From Thermofilales archaeon (GTDB taxonomy: Archaea; Thermoproteota; Thermoprotei; Thermofilales; Thermofilaceae), in assembly GCA_028275925.1 (NCBI GenBank), contig JAPWTS010000004.1, positions 1-52,898 of the forward strand: 52,898 nucleotides of DNA, written 5' to 3'. A program made the translations under genes and the position numbers. Below, in pieces: positions 20,215-46,782 of the stretch; the first letter of the stretch is position 1, and each line of letters opens with the position of its first letter. Below the pieces are notes generated by a model, which saw only the letters and a program-made list of their open reading frames with translations, did no database searches and was not told where the DNA came from.

Positions 20215-21288
20215 GTGGAGGGAGGGAGGAGGTACAGGGGCAGGGTTCTGCCGGTGGCGCCGGAGCGCGCGACCTCGCTGAGGAGGGTGGCGGAGGACAT
20301 CGGGAGGGTTCTGGAGGGGCTCGGGTTCCGAGTCCTCGAGCCCCTGCTGTACCCAGACGCGGTGAGGTTCGGGCAGCTCCGACCCAGCGCGACCTACATC
20401 GTGATGGCCTTCGACACGATATGGGCCGTCCCCTTCTTCTACCTAGGCTACAGGGCCAAGGCGGACGGCATCAGGTACGCCTGGTACGCGACCGTGGAGG
20501 GGAGGGTCGTCAGGGCCCCCGGCACGGAGTGGGTCTTCAGGGAGCTGGAGTTCGTCGCCAACTCCAAGTACACGGCGAGGAAGCTCGCGGAGGCGGGCGC
20601 TAGGGTGAGGGCCGTGGTCTACCACGGCGTGGACGCGCAGGAGGCGTTCGCGAGGGGGGCGCTCGGCCCAGCCGTGAGGCGGTCGCTCGGCTTCTCCGAG
20701 CGGGACTTCGTCGTCGGCTACGTGGCCGGCGCGTACGCGAGGAAGGGGCACGACCTCTTCGCGGAGGTCATCAAAGAAGTGGCGAAGAGGGATCCGAGCG
20801 TGAAGTTCGCGGTGGTCACGCAGCCGCAGGCCGCCGAGGCGTACGCCGGCTGCCCGAACACCCTAGTGCTGACGAGCTTCGGCCAGAAGCCGAGGGAGTG
20901 GGTGTGGGGCTTCTACCACGCGATCGACCTATACGCCCACGCCGCGCTGGCGGAGGGCTTCGGAATGCCGATCCTAGAGAGTTTGGCCTGCGGGAGAGCT
21001 GTGGTTCACGCGGACTACGAACCGCTCTCGGAGATAACGACGCCCGAGACGTCGTTCCGGGTGCCGGTCGTCGACGTCCAGTACGCGGGCGACCCCTACC
21101 ACCTGCAGACGGGCATCGAGTACGAGCACCACCTCTACGACCCAGCCGAGTTCGCGGAGGCGCTGCTGCAGGCGAAGGACGAGGTGCTGAGGAGGAGGGG
21201 GGAGCTGGAGAGGGCGTGCCTCGAGAGGGCGAGGGAGTTCGACGCGAGAAAAGTATATAGAGCGATAGCCGATATGCTGGCGGGGTGA
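20215..21288 (+). CDS. GT-B glycosyltransferase, family 4-like
   Basis: A 357-residue glycosyltransferase. The N-terminal half ends in VANSKYTARKL and VVYHGVD (about 114-142), typical of the linker in GT4 enzymes. The C-terminal donor domain has GYVAGAYARKGHDLFAEVI (about 168-186) and the key EGFGMPILESLACGRAVVHAD segment (about 246-266), with the Glu pair that binds the nucleotide sugar. A leaderless GTG start follows TCTTTAAGC. Filamentous archaeal viruses often encode such enzymes, probably to glycosylate virion proteins. It heads an operon with two small proteins and the giant protein. Confidence 0.85.
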   Translation: MEGGRRYRGRVLPVAPERATSLRRVAEDIGRVLEGLGFRVLEPLLYPDAVRFGQLRPSATYIVMAFDTIWAVPFFYLGYRAKADGIRYAWYATVEGRVVRAPGTEWVFRELEFVANSKYTARKLAEAGARVRAVVYHGVDAQEAFARGALGPAVRRSLGFSERDFVVGYVAGAYARKGHDLFAEVIKEVAKRDPSVKFAVVTQPQAAEAYAGCPNTLVLTSFGQKPREWVWGFYHAIDLYAHAALAEGFGMPILESLACGRAVVHADYEPLSEITTPETSFRVPVVDVQYAGDPYHLQTGIEYEHHLYDPAEFAEALLQAKDEVLRRRGELERACLERAREFDARKVYRAIADMLAG

Positions 21289-27282: not shown

Positions 27283-28389
27283 GTGGGGGGGCGCTCCGTC
27301 CTCTACTCGTACCCGATCTGGCAGACGGTCTCCTTCTCGCTGGTGGCTAGGAAGCACATCGAGCACCTGAGGGCGCGCGCGCCGGTCTACGAGTGGGACT
27401 CGGCGACCGTGCCGGACGTGTACGTGCTGACGCCGTTCGCGCTCGTGGTGCACCCGACGATCGGATCGCTCCGGAACTGGGCGCAGCAGATCGAGGAGAT
27501 AGAGGGGGACTTTGAGAGGGCGCTCAGCTCCCTCGAGGAGCGCTTCAGGAAGTACGAGAGGGTCGTCGGGGTGGACGTGGCGGACAGCGACAGGGTGAGC
27601 GAGCTGGGGATCCGGCTGGCGGAGCCGGTGGACGCGCTGGTGGTGCCGAGCGAGTGGGCAAGGCAGGCGTTCCTCAGGAGCGGCTACCGGAAGCCGGTGC
27701 ACGTGGTGCCCCACGGGGTGGACAGGCGGTGGGTCGAGGAGCCGCCCCGCCTCCCGACGGAGAGGGACAACCCAGCCCTCTACCTCCTCAGGAAGGTGAA
27801 GGAGGTCGGCGGCAAAAAGCTGCTGCTCTTCTGGCTCTGGCACAGCCCCGCGCGCAAGGGCTTCCCAGAGGTCGCCGAGTTCTACAAGAGGCTGCGGAGG
27901 GAGAGGGGCGACGTGGCGCTCGTCGTGAAGACCGGCGAGCCCCTGCAGCCGGACGACCCCGAGCTGGTCAAGCTCGGGGTGGTCAACGTGTGGGGCTGGC
28001 TCGACGACCGCGAGAAGATGATGCTCTACGACCTATCCGACATCACGCTCCTTTTCTCCCGCGGCGGGGCTTTCGAAATATGCGGCTTGGAAAGCTTGGC
28101 GAGGGGGGTGCCGATCATCGCGCACAGGAGGGGGTCGTGGGCGGAGTACTCGCCGGGGTGGTGCCTCGTGCCGGAGGGCGAGAGGGCGCCCGTGCTGCCG
28201 GGCAACCCGATACATATCGGGTTCGGCTACAAGGTGGACGTGGAGAAGGCGGTGGACTTGGCGCACGCTATGCTCGACGACTTGGACGAGTACAAGGCCA
28301 AGGCTAGGGAGCACGCGCTGAGGGTCGTCGCGAAGGAGTACACGTGGGACAGGGTCGCGGGGCGGCTCTGGTCGGTCGTCGCGTCGTGA
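27283..28389 (+). CDS. GT-B glycosyltransferase 2
   Basis: A 368-residue protein with GT4-like features: VDALVVPSEWARQAFLRSGY and VHVVPHGVD (about 113-146), LLLFWLWHSPARKGFPEVAEFY (about 184-205) and the donor-binding segment FEICGLESLARGVPIIAHRRGSWAE (about 264-288), with Glu at both family positions. It is not a close copy of the enzyme at 20215. The two may act in sequence on virion glycans. Start: GTG 27283. Confidence 0.8.
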   Translation: MGGRSVLYSYPIWQTVSFSLVARKHIEHLRARAPVYEWDSATVPDVYVLTPFALVVHPTIGSLRNWAQQIEEIEGDFERALSSLEERFRKYERVVGVDVADSDRVSELGIRLAEPVDALVVPSEWARQAFLRSGYRKPVHVVPHGVDRRWVEEPPRLPTERDNPALYLLRKVKEVGGKKLLLFWLWHSPARKGFPEVAEFYKRLRRERGDVALVVKTGEPLQPDDPELVKLGVVNVWGWLDDREKMMLYDLSDITLLFSRGGAFEICGLESLARGVPIIAHRRGSWAEYSPGWCLVPEGERAPVLPGNPIHIGFGYKVDVEKAVDLAHAMLDDLDEYKAKAREHALRVVAKEYTWDRVAGRLWSVVAS

Positions 28390-30146: not shown

Positions 30147-30527
30147 GTGCCGGTCTGGTGGCCGCCCGCCTACCGCTACAAGCACCTGTTCACGTTCGAC
30201 GACACGCAGGTCTCGATGAGCGGCACGACGGAGACGGAGCTGAAGACGTTCAGGTTCTACAAGAGCGCCTACGCGCCCTTCCGGAGGCTCGCGATGCTCG
30301 TCTCGCTCTGGGTGTCCGGCGGCACCGGCACGCTGAAGGTGTACATCGACGCGGAGACCACGCCGCGCGCCAGCTTCAGCACGACGAGCACGAGCGAGGT
30401 CTTCGCCACGCTCGCGTTCAGCGTCGCGGATCTGGCGTACGGCCCCCACACGGTGCGCGTCAGGTGCGTGAACAGCGGCGCCTACTACACGTACACCCGC
30501 TACTTGGACGCCTGGGGCGAGGTGTGA
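30147..30527 (+). CDS. Beta-sandwich putative virion protein
   Basis: 126 residues from a GTG about 35 bases after GGTTTAAGG. It is composed of beta strands with many Thr, Ser and Tyr (SLWVSGGTGTLKVYIDAE; HTVRVRCVNSGAYYTYTRYLDAW). It resembles the later pair at 34414 and 34804 in size and strand pattern. It lies three bases before the Cys-triplet genes. Confidence 0.65.
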   Translation: MPVWWPPAYRYKHLFTFDDTQVSMSGTTETELKTFRFYKSAYAPFRRLAMLVSLWVSGGTGTLKVYIDAETTPRASFSTTSTSEVFATLAFSVADLAYGPHTVRVRCVNSGAYYTYTRYLDAWGEV

Positions 30528-30530
30528 AGC

Positions 30531-30818
30531 GTGTTAAGGTACTGGAGGGGCGGCGACCCGCCGGCGGAGGAGCCGGACATCAAGAACCTGCCCTGCAGGC
30601 AGTGCCAGACCTGCGACGCCTGCCAGAGCTGCTACAGCTGCCAGGTGTGCTACGCCTGCCAGTCCTGCTACTCGTGCCAGGTCTGCAACACCTGCCAGGT
30701 CTGCTACACGAGCTGCTACAGCTGCTACACCTGCTACGGCTCGTGCGAGACGTGCCAGGTGTGCAACACCTGCCAGGTGTGTGTCTCCTGCGACTGCTAC
30801 GTCGCGATAATCGCGTAG
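30531..30818 (+). CDS. Cys-triplet-repeat peptide 1 (candidate precursor)
   Basis: 95 residues from a GTG three bases after the upstream stop. Residues 1-20 are a short non-Cys leader beginning LRYWRG. From about residue 21 Cys occurs every third position with few slips, giving 23 Cys in about 70 residues (CQTCDACQSCYSCQVCYAC). The spacer pairs are drawn mostly from QV, QS, YS, NT, QT. It is closely related to the next gene and to the N terminus of the radical SAM enzyme. Leader plus Cys-rich core beside a radical SAM/SPASM enzyme is the plan of thioether-bridged RiPPs. Metal binding is the main alternative. Confidence 0.8.
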   Translation: MLRYWRGGDPPAEEPDIKNLPCRQCQTCDACQSCYSCQVCYACQSCYSCQVCNTCQVCYTSCYSCYTCYGSCETCQVCNTCQVCVSCDCYVAIIA

Positions 30819-30831
30819 GGGGTGGGGGAGG

Positions 30832-31101
30832 GTGGCGCTGAACCTGAAGTACTGGAGGGGTGCGAGGACGGCGGACGTGAAGGACATGGAGTGCGTGACC
30901 TGCCAGACCTGCTACCCCTGCCAGACCTGCGTCTCCGCCTACTCGTGCGGGGCGTGCCAGTCCTGCTACTCCTGCCAGGTGTGCAACACCTGCTACGGGA
31001 GCTGCGTGACGTGCCAGGCCTGCAACGTCTCCTGCTACAGCTGCTACTCCTGCCAAGTGTGCGATGCCTGCCAGGTCTGCTACGCGGTCAAGTACGGGTG
31101 A
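30832..31101 (+). CDS. Cys-triplet-repeat peptide 2 (candidate precursor)
   Basis: 89 residues from GTG 30832 after GGGGGTGGGGGAGG. The leader has LKYWRG, matching LRYWRG of the first peptide, then a DVKDMEC boundary. The core has 20 Cys at mostly three-residue spacing (CQSCYSCQVCNTCYGSC). It ends in YAVKYG without Cys. The shared leader motif in otherwise different leaders is what a common maturase would recognise. Confidence 0.8.
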   Translation: MALNLKYWRGARTADVKDMECVTCQTCYPCQTCVSAYSCGACQSCYSCQVCNTCYGSCVTCQACNVSCYSCYSCQVCDACQVCYAVKYG

Positions 31102-31107
31102 GGGGGC

Positions 31108-32358
31108 GTGCCCTGCGCGACCTGCGAGTCGTGCGTCGGCTGCCAGGTCTGCTACAGCTGCCAAGCCTGCGTCAGCTGCGAGCAGGGCTTCGGCGGCCCT
31201 CCGCCCCCCACCCTGCCCCTGACGGAGAGGGCGGTCTCCGCCACCGTCTACCCGACGGAGAGGTGTAACCTGAGCTGCTCGTACTGTTTTTATTTCAACT
31301 ACAGGCGGCAGTTCGCCAGGAAGGATATGGACGAGGACACGGCGCTCGCGCTGATGGACTTCCTCGCCAAGCGCGCTGAGAGGGAAAAAGCGAACGTGAT
31401 CCATATCGGCTGGTTCGGGGCGGAGCCGACGCTCGCCATACCCTTCATCGAGTGGTTTATGGAGACCGCCAAGAGGAGGCACCCGAGGTACAGGTGGACG
31501 TGCAGCGTCACCACGAACGGAGTCCTCCTCGCTGACGAGGGGTTCGCGGAGCGGTGCAGGATCTTCACGCACATCATACTCTCGGTGGACGGCGTGGGGG
31601 AGTGGCACGACATATACCGCCGCTTCCCGGACGGGAGGGGCAGCTGGCAGTACGTGGAGAAGGCGATCCGGAACCTGCAGAAGCTGGGCATCCCGTTCAC
31701 CGCGAGGATGACGCTCGCGCCGGAGAACGTCGCGGGGGCGTACGAGAGCGTGAAGGCGCTGGTGGAGATGGGGGTGAAGAACATCTTCACGGGCGTCGTC
31801 GAGGAGGACGTCTGGGACGAGGAGAGCCTGTGGGAGCTCCGCAGGCAGTACCAGCTCATCGCCGACTACCTGATCGAGCAGCTCCTCAGGGGCAACGAGG
31901 TGCACTGGGGCCAGTTCCGCCACGGCATCGACCTCGTGTTCAGGGAGCAGCCGCTGGGCGAGCACGACCACTGCGGGCAGCTCGGCAACTCGATGGGCGT
32001 CTACGTGGACGGCTCGATATACGCGTGTCACCGCGCGGTCGGGATACCGGAGCTGAAAGCGGGGGACGTGTTCAGCGGGATACCGCCCGAGGCGGAGGCG
32101 AAGTTCACCAAGATGTTCAGCAGGAGCAGGGCGGTCGAGGCGAACGGTCTCTGGAGCTACCCGTTCAGGGAGAGGACGCACTTCGGCTGCCTGGTCGCGA
32201 ACTACGAGGCTAGGGGGGACATCCACAGAACCAACGTCCCGCTCCTCAGGGCGTACGACGAGAGCTGCGCGCTGGCCGCGCTGAAGCTGTTCATGGCGGG
32301 GAGGGCGCACCAGAGCAAGCTGATCTACGACGTCTACTTCAAGGGGATAGTGAAGTAG
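31108..32358 (+). CDS. Radical SAM/SPASM enzyme with Cys-triplet N terminus
   Basis: 416 residues from GTG 31108, six bases after the second peptide gene. Residues 1-24 repeat the Cys triplet pattern (eight Cys, CQVCYSCQACVSC). The radical SAM site is CNLSCSYC (Cys 53, 57, 60), followed by GWFGAEPT (101-108) like the family GGEP motif. The C-terminal SPASM-like part has CGQLGNSMGVYVDGSIYACH (Cys 289, 307) and later Cys 361 and 387 for auxiliary clusters. Related enzymes make thioether or C-C bonds in peptides or act as sulfatase maturases. The likely substrates are the two preceding peptides and perhaps its own N terminus. Confidence 0.85.
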   Translation: MPCATCESCVGCQVCYSCQACVSCEQGFGGPPPPTLPLTERAVSATVYPTERCNLSCSYCFYFNYRRQFARKDMDEDTALALMDFLAKRAEREKANVIHIGWFGAEPTLAIPFIEWFMETAKRRHPRYRWTCSVTTNGVLLADEGFAERCRIFTHIILSVDGVGEWHDIYRRFPDGRGSWQYVEKAIRNLQKLGIPFTARMTLAPENVAGAYESVKALVEMGVKNIFTGVVEEDVWDEESLWELRRQYQLIADYLIEQLLRGNEVHWGQFRHGIDLVFREQPLGEHDHCGQLGNSMGVYVDGSIYACHRAVGIPELKAGDVFSGIPPEAEAKFTKMFSRSRAVEANGLWSYPFRERTHFGCLVANYEARGDIHRTNVPLLRAYDESCALAALKLFMAGRAHQSKLIYDVYFKGIVK

Positions 32359-46056: not shown

Positions 46057-46782
46057 TTAAGCGTTTCGGGGCAGCCTAGAGACGAACTCGAGGAAGTACC
46101 TCTCCCTCTCCCTCGCGCCCCCGCAGCTGCGGCGGCCCCGCTCGCGGGGGAACGTCCAAGCCATACTGTCGAAGCTGTGGAGAACCCCCTCCAGCCTGAG
46201 GGCGGCGCCCAGCGGTATCCCGAAGGCGTGCAGCCTCTTGCCCGCCAGCAGGGAGGCCGCGTACCTCACCGCCCGCACGACGAAGCCGGCGCTCCTAGCG
46301 GTGCAGAGGTTGGCGACGCCGAAGTAACCGAAGCGGTCGAGGATCCCGACCTCCGCGTACAGCTCGACGCACCTCCCTAGGCTTTCCGCGTCCATATAGT
46401 GGCCCTGAACCGGTATCATCCACCGCACCTCTGGGTGGGAGTCCACGGCTGCGGTCACGCTCTCGACCGTCCTCTCTATGTTCGTCTTCCCGCCGACCCA
46501 CAGCGAGCGGGGGTGGTAGTCGTCTGGGTAGTCCGGCGCGACCGCCCAGACCTCCCGCGCGTAGAGCGAGGCGATGCGGTACAGGGCGGCGACCCTCTCG
46601 AGGTGGCTGGGCGGGTAGTCCCTCACGGACGGATCCCTGAAGATCTCCACGCCGGAGTCCACGATGACCGCCTCGACCCTCCCCCACCGCCTGAGGTACC
46701 TGAGCCCCCTCTCCGGCCTGTTGGCGTTGATCAGAACGTAGGGCCAGTAGACGCCGGAGGGCGGGAGGGTGAAGAACCTCAC
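46057..46782 (-). CDS. TGT/DpdA-like base-exchange enzyme 2
   Basis: 241 residues, diverged paralogue of the enzyme at 42348. Matching blocks are AVIVDSGVEIF (38-48), VWAVAPDYPDDYH (78-90), NIERTV (101-106), WMIPVQGHY (121-129), GVANLCTARSAGF (155-167) and HAFGIPLG...SFDSMAWTFPRERGR with Asp 205 at the expected nucleophile position. It keeps the first Asp (42) but has DSGVE instead of DSGVFQ. The two enzymes may act on different sites or substrates. A start at GTG 46782 is used, without an obvious promoter, so it is probably read with the zinc-ribbon gene upstream. Confidence 0.7.
   Translation of the reverse strand: MRFFTLPPSGVYWPYVLINANRPERGLRYLRRWGRVEAVIVDSGVEIFRDPSVRDYPPSHLERVAALYRIASLYAREVWAVAPDYPDDYHPRSLWVGGKTNIERTVESVTAAVDSHPEVRWMIPVQGHYMDAESLGRCVELYAEVGILDRFGYFGVANLCTARSAGFVVRAVRYAASLLAGKRLHAFGIPLGAALRLEGVLHSFDSMAWTFPRERGRRSCGGARERERYFLEFVSRLPRNA

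Follow-up and report, generated by a model that had tools for sequence, protein, structure and literature searches.

Cross-linking by radical S-adenosylmethionine (SAM) enzymes is known from small peptides that are secreted or act as signals. The closest described system to the locus reported here is PapB/freyrasin (NCBIfam NF047865), in which a radical SAM/SPASM enzyme joins Cys to Asp or Glu in the CX3D/E motifs of the Cys-rich substrate PapA and accepts nested links (PMC9413430). Radical SAM maturases are also paired with regular Cys repeats in the TIGR04115 (CXXX-repeat) and NF038107 (CefB, Cys at every fifth position) families, and the thioether-forming radical SAM/SPASM maturase of SCIFF (TIGR03974) adjoins a small Cys-rich peptide. 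The locus analysed here lies in a 52,898-nucleotide stretch of DNA (the window), contig C142 of a 1.95-Mb Thermofilales archaeon assembly, where two adjacent genes for proteins with Cys-triplet, (C-x-x)n or CXX, tracts precede a gene for a PapB-like radical SAM enzyme. From comparison of sequences, this virus-encoded enzyme probably cross-links the virus's own tail-tip Cys-ladder proteins into a stiff rod. The features of the locus were as follows.

30147..30527, + strand: small tail-block protein of 126 residues (tblastn synteny, gene list)
30531..30818, + strand: Cys-triplet protein 1, 95 residues with 23 Cys; leader MLRYWRG...DIKNLP, then a (C-x-x)n tract
30832..31101, + strand: Cys-triplet protein 2, 89 residues with 20 Cys; leader MALNLKYWRG...DVKDME, then a (C-x-x)n tract
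31108..32358, + strand: PapB-like radical SAM enzyme, 416 residues (Pfam, NCBIfam, alignment)
31108..31179, + strand: the enzyme's own (C-x-x)8 tract, residues 1-24 (hexad, terminal motif)
31264..31287, + strand: radical SAM cluster motif CNLSCSYC, enzyme residues 53-60
31972..32190, + strand: degenerate SPASM region with Cys 289, 307 and 361 kept (alignment of 10 enzymes); the last of the four absent Cys positions falls just past its end

The open reading frames of both Cys-rich proteins were as an earlier interpretation made from the letters alone (the sequence-only reading) had described them, with L(R/K)YWRG common to the two leaders. The ladder, said there to place Cys at every third position, was near-perfect rather than perfect, the Cys-Cys gap being exactly 3 in 19 of 22 cases in protein 1. 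The enzyme gene began six bases after protein 2, and the eight Cys reported for its first 24 residues were borne out, at residues 3, 6, 9, 12, 15, 18, 21 and 24. The G+C content at third codon positions was 0.94-0.97 across the three genes (0.97 in both peptides), in line with coding sequence across the contig, and in L021, a low-GC relative, the Cys residues were kept with mixed TGC/TGT codons; the reading frames are therefore considered real. A frame artefact was rejected on the same codon-position pattern and on the homologues of differing base composition. Purine-rich stretches resembling Shine-Dalgarno sequences lay 5' of all three starts.

The window enzyme matched Pfam Radical_SAM (PF04055, E = 6e-17), with the CxxxCxxC motif present as CNLSCSYC, and its best match among all NCBIfam models was the PapB ranthipeptide maturase NF047865 (177.6 bits). 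PapB was also the strongest model across nine relatives, so that all ten enzymes tested matched it (best E = 4e-68), which agrees with the earlier placement of the enzyme among thioether-forming peptide maturases. About 47 residues precede the enzyme core, 24 of which form the Cys tract. No PqqD or RiPP recognition element (RRE; RiPP, ribosomally synthesized and post-translationally modified peptide) was matched by Pfam in nine enzymes, although a very divergent RRE could escape detection. One related enzyme (L162, 4735-7059) was interrupted by an intein-like insert within the CxxxCxxC motif.

The co-occurrence search that the sequence-only reading had proposed for the peptides and the enzyme was run, and the pairing was conserved in both directions. 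Peptide 1 alone recovered six viral loci from IMG/VR, four of which (three distinct viruses) were followed immediately by a radical SAM gene whose product bore N-terminal CxxCxxC units of its own, while in the other two the contig ended within about 500 bases. Enzyme-profile searches yielded 11 further CXX-clade loci (L154, L161, L162, L163, L170, L173, L339-L343), and all 11, found via the enzyme alone, had a Cys-repeat neighbor, with spacings of three and four mixed at L339-L342. In an Anaerolinea contig (L265, host Chloroflexota), a CXX open reading frame lay just upstream of the enzyme at the contig edge. When about 150 related enzymes were compared, only those adjoining Cys-triplet genes had an N-terminal run of at least three Cys triplets. 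In all DNA retrieved, open reading frames with at least two C-[QE]-x-C-[NDYV]-x-C hexads adjoined such an enzyme unless the contig ended. These sequence comparisons support the enzyme and the Cys-triplet proteins as a conserved functional pair.

The carriers were diverse. L258, identical in sequence to L021, was assigned to the host Candidatus Methanodesulfokora washburnensis, and G081 and L343/L368 to another Thermoproteota family. The same pairing was present in bacterial-type viral contigs and is not limited to archaeal viruses. In a tree of 79 enzymes, the CXX-associated enzymes other than that of the window grouped together (99/84), with one period-4 member falling among them, and a single clade including the window enzyme was not rejected (approximately unbiased test, p-AU 0.18). 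No CXX-clade enzyme was found among isolated phages, and no homologue of the window enzyme at E 1e-5 in three other genomes of the same genus. The window protein alone gave no enzyme match in viral contigs, the window enzyme being too divergent, and no phage record was matched by the peptide in tblastn, the low-complexity filter masking the query. A degenerate 9x(TGYNNNNNN) pattern gave about 120 matches in viral contigs, only two of them real; it was not used as evidence, because almost all the others were collagen-like or simple repeats in other frames, lacking an enzyme. A narrower C-Q-x-C pattern had the same flaw, and filtering for true hexads left only loci that bore an enzyme or were cut by a contig end. 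Enzyme matches in gut 'phages' were SCIFF loci lacking CXX ladders, probably in bacterial DNA, and were set aside.

The archaeal virus loci shared one gene order, in which a small tail protein was followed by two CXX peptides and then by the enzyme. The small tail protein, of 126 residues in the window, had homologues in L021/L258, L368 and L173 by tblastn synteny, and in L368 the homologue formed the end of a 427-residue tail-fiber-like protein. In L368, moreover, the enzyme's Cys tract was a separate 86-residue gene between the peptides and the enzyme, and the enzyme tract is thus a separable module. The archaeal peptides had a conserved short N-terminus, N[LIV][RK]...[ND][LIV][KR][DN]xxC, before the tract. 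In bacterial-type viral contigs (L022, L154, L157/L025, L161, L162, L163, L166/L023, L169/L045 and L170, with a similar arrangement in L026), a large protein of roughly 850-1470 residues ending in a CXX tract was followed by a small CXX protein, starting M-A-C or similar and leaderless, and then by the enzyme. The large proteins scanned had a match to PHROG 8917 (phrog_8917) in common. For a weak model of one large protein (predicted local distance difference test, pLDDT, 52), all 13 PDB matches with E below 0.001 were tail-tip or baseplate proteins, including those of T5, DT57C and lambda, and the BFVD matches were entries named 'tail protein' or 'tip attachment protein J'.

The tracts followed a hexad, C-[Q/E]-x-C-[N/D/Y/V]-[T/S/A/V], in which Q/E (or M/K) came after alternate Cys: 326 of 411 pairs alternated, and such a residue occurred twice running in only 10. 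At breaks of the ladder, defined as no Cys within the next four positions, the residue at +4 was Q/E in 142 of 213 cases (67%; chance 22%), whereas 500 permutations of the non-Cys residues averaged 46 such cases and never exceeded 61, and a harder control averaged 25; the remaining +4 residues were mostly V or Y. As the enrichment holds at breaks, it is not explained by position after a Cys. Given the CX3D/E chemistry of PapB (PMC9413430), a bond from C(i) to residue i+4 would be the natural candidate. The enzyme units ended in the same +4 classes, with V/I/Y/F after C-[E/Q] and Q/E after C-[D/F/V]-[T/S], and the tract of the window enzyme agreed with those of related enzymes, and with the breaks in substrate tracts, in its hexad and in its terminal motif, C-[EQ]-x-x-[VIYF].

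In the mechanism proposed here, the substrates of the enzyme would be the Cys ladders of tail-tip proteins that the virus itself encodes. The modification would most likely consist of thioethers, each Cys being bonded through its sulfur to a carbon of the fourth residue after it (C-x-x-C-[Q/E/D/N/Y/V]). The product would be a stiff, non-reducible, heat-stable rod extending the tail-tip hub as a central fiber or adhesin. The one to several CxxCxxC units that resemble the substrate, carried by the enzyme or encoded beside it, would probably replace RRE/leader recognition, through homotypic docking or self-modification. Of the roles offered by the sequence-only reading, a virion part is the best supported. 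In archaeal viruses, whose tracts lack a hub fusion, the putative virion location follows from the neighboring genes. A rod that cannot be reduced would suit a virus living in hot, reducing water; the existence of bacterial-type relatives suggests that heat is not required for the ladder system. With somewhat less than even confidence, we extend this proposal to a whole class of tailed viruses, archaeal and bacterial, that may build a virion-dedicated, cross-linked Cys-ladder tail-tip fiber of period 3 or period 4, the enzyme's copy of the ladder serving, in place of leader and RRE, to recognize the substrate or prime it. Phages in general may treat Cys-rich virion proteins with radical SAM enzymes. 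Although the enzyme family has been described before, such a use on virion proteins appears to be new, and no relevant description of viral radical SAM modification of virion proteins was found in the open-access literature. If used to harden virion proteins, it would represent a new assembly chemistry for viruses and would explain how tail fibers survive in hot, reducing surroundings that disulfides do not withstand. A repeat-recognizing enzyme, maybe needing no leader, would also be useful for making stapled rods or fibers.

Several observations weigh against this proposal. The window enzyme scored under the PapB cut-off (177.6 against 340 bits), and its branch in the tree was very long (2.37), making its placement unsure. 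The SPASM-like Cys of the sequence-only reading stood only in part: the seven-Cys pattern was complete in nine aligned relatives, whereas the window enzyme held three of the seven and lacked the other four. By the usual SPASM assignment, the kept Cys are presumably the AuxI ligands and the absent ones the AuxII ligands. As a speculation, the unusually long tract of the window enzyme may make up for the lost Cys. Both AlphaFold models were poor (pLDDT 58 and 52), that of the window enzyme did not resolve the tract, and the TM-scores of the large-protein model to tail proteins were at most 0.25. The archaeal tracts, besides being free of hub fusion, had few breaks, with weak or absent +4 enrichment (0 of 3 in the window, 0 of 2 in G081), and tandem-repeated breaks were not independent in the +4 count. 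The enriched acceptor was mostly Gln, compared with the Asp/Glu described for PapB, and the related period-4 tracts followed neither a +4 nor a +5 rule at breaks.

The main rival, which we regard as unlikely, is that the Cys ladders act as scaffolds for metal or iron-sulfur clusters, giving the virion a metallated rod; the tract of the enzyme would then be an additional site for a cluster, or a relay for electrons, and the enzyme would load or modify a few sites only. CxxCxxC is a classic cluster-binding spacing. The enzyme units often had exactly three Cys (CxxC[YF]xC, up to five repeats), a cluster-like spacing, and the window enzyme, short of four SPASM Cys, carried the longest unbroken tract, which could supply ligands. 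Metal binding, however, would need neither a PapB-like peptide maturase as a strict partner nor the +4 Q/E/V/Y rule, which holds even where the neighboring Cys is missing, and no assembly or chaperone gene was seen adjoining.

A second rival, already raised in part in the sequence-only reading, is a secreted RiPP, that is, a cross-linked peptide made by the virus as a toxin or superinfection-exclusion factor for the host. It agrees with the enzyme class, which makes RiPPs, and with the conserved short N-terminal stretch before the tract in the archaeal peptides. It is rendered improbable by the leaderless M-A-C starts of the bacterial-type substrates, the lack of an RRE match in the nine enzymes, the lack of any protease, exporter or transporter among the neighbors scanned, the position of the genes within a structural block, and the recurrence of the tract as the C-terminus of tail-hub-like proteins. 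Finally, that the Cys-rich proteins act via disulfides or free thiols while the radical SAM enzyme modifies some other target, such as a tail fiber or host protein, is conceivable insofar as Group II and other phages pair similar enzymes with differently spaced Cys repeats and might share a non-tract substrate, but it is very doubtful, since the enzyme bears the same repeat (its own gene between peptides and enzyme in L368) and the Cys-ladder protein is the constant neighbor where others vary.

A fair reading of the window is that it derives from an archaeal tailed virus, on the basis of a tape-measure gene 3.5 kb upstream of the locus (E = 7e-32) and a viral-type MCM helicase with 29-36% identity to those of haloarchaeal and Methanocaldococcus tailed viruses. 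Among the window genes scanned, no terminase or capsid match was found, and the contig ends carried no direct terminal repeat. Two glycosyltransferases (20215-21288 and 27283-28389), which could modify tail proteins, flanked the tape-measure gene. A DpdA-like protein (46057-46782; Pfam PF23859, E = 8e-6, just under the cut-off) points to possible 7-deazaguanine DNA modification.

Cys repeats of other spacing were also observed next to radical SAM genes. Seven loci (L172, L174, L178, L264, L270, L286, L310) encoded large phage-like proteins (about 750-1300 residues, or cut by the contig end) ending in period-4 CQxxC tracts, with Q/E after 83% of Cys and a radical SAM gene adjoining. In eight gut phage-like contigs (L116, L184, L189, L191, L204, L205, L240, L243), two proteins of about 130 residues had terminal CQTCQGCQ tracts, most of these contigs having two radical SAM genes within a few kb, as a parallel system. 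The jumbo Erwinia phage pEa_SNUABM_29 (L031) encoded two paralogous 133-residue Cys/Gly/Ser-rich proteins with CxxxC repeats (2064-2462 and 2475-2873, + strand; annotated on the opposite strand in GenBank) near two radical SAM genes, and, as a cultured phage, could serve as a model. Campylobacter phage CP21 (L032, 1072-2688) encoded a 539-residue protein with repeated CDCNYCTC, whose annotation is N-acetylneuraminate lyase; a radical SAM gene, split in two in the annotation, lay about 2 kb away. In Thermoproteota (L339-L342), proteins of about 400 residues had mixed CXX/CXXX tracts, with a short protein or tail before the enzyme that ended in a conserved C-terminal helix (KEVVMETLIELDL). In a planctomycetotal contig (L325, 3799-4449), a CxC-repeat open reading frame (CTCTCDCDCEC) adjoined a radical SAM gene with a Cys-rich N-terminal part.

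Set beside the known systems, the locus differs from the TIGR04115 and NF038107 families in its spacing of three rather than four or five, and the window enzyme scored far under both cut-offs (106 against 350 and 63 against 600, respectively). The SCIFF peptide has six spaced Cys, unlike the ladders described here, and the SCIFF model scored 102 against a cut-off of 425. Siphophage tail-tip hubs (T5 pb3-like, lambda J) were, tentatively, the best fold match of the large CXX-tailed proteins, which are extended at the C-terminus by a Cys ladder in place of a fiber or receptor-binding domain; we know of no modifying enzyme for the T5 or lambda hubs. PapB/freyrasin remains the best curated family match and shares with the present system a radical SAM/SPASM enzyme, a Cys-rich substrate and, tentatively and at ladder breaks outside the archaeal tracts, acidic or amide residues four positions after Cys. 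It differs from the window enzyme in the score, the SPASM Cys and the RRE discussed above, and from the wider system in its substrates, which here are viral, mostly leaderless, with Cys at every third residue and mainly Gln at +4, and fused to tail-hub-like proteins, and in that the enzymes here themselves carry substrate-like repeats.
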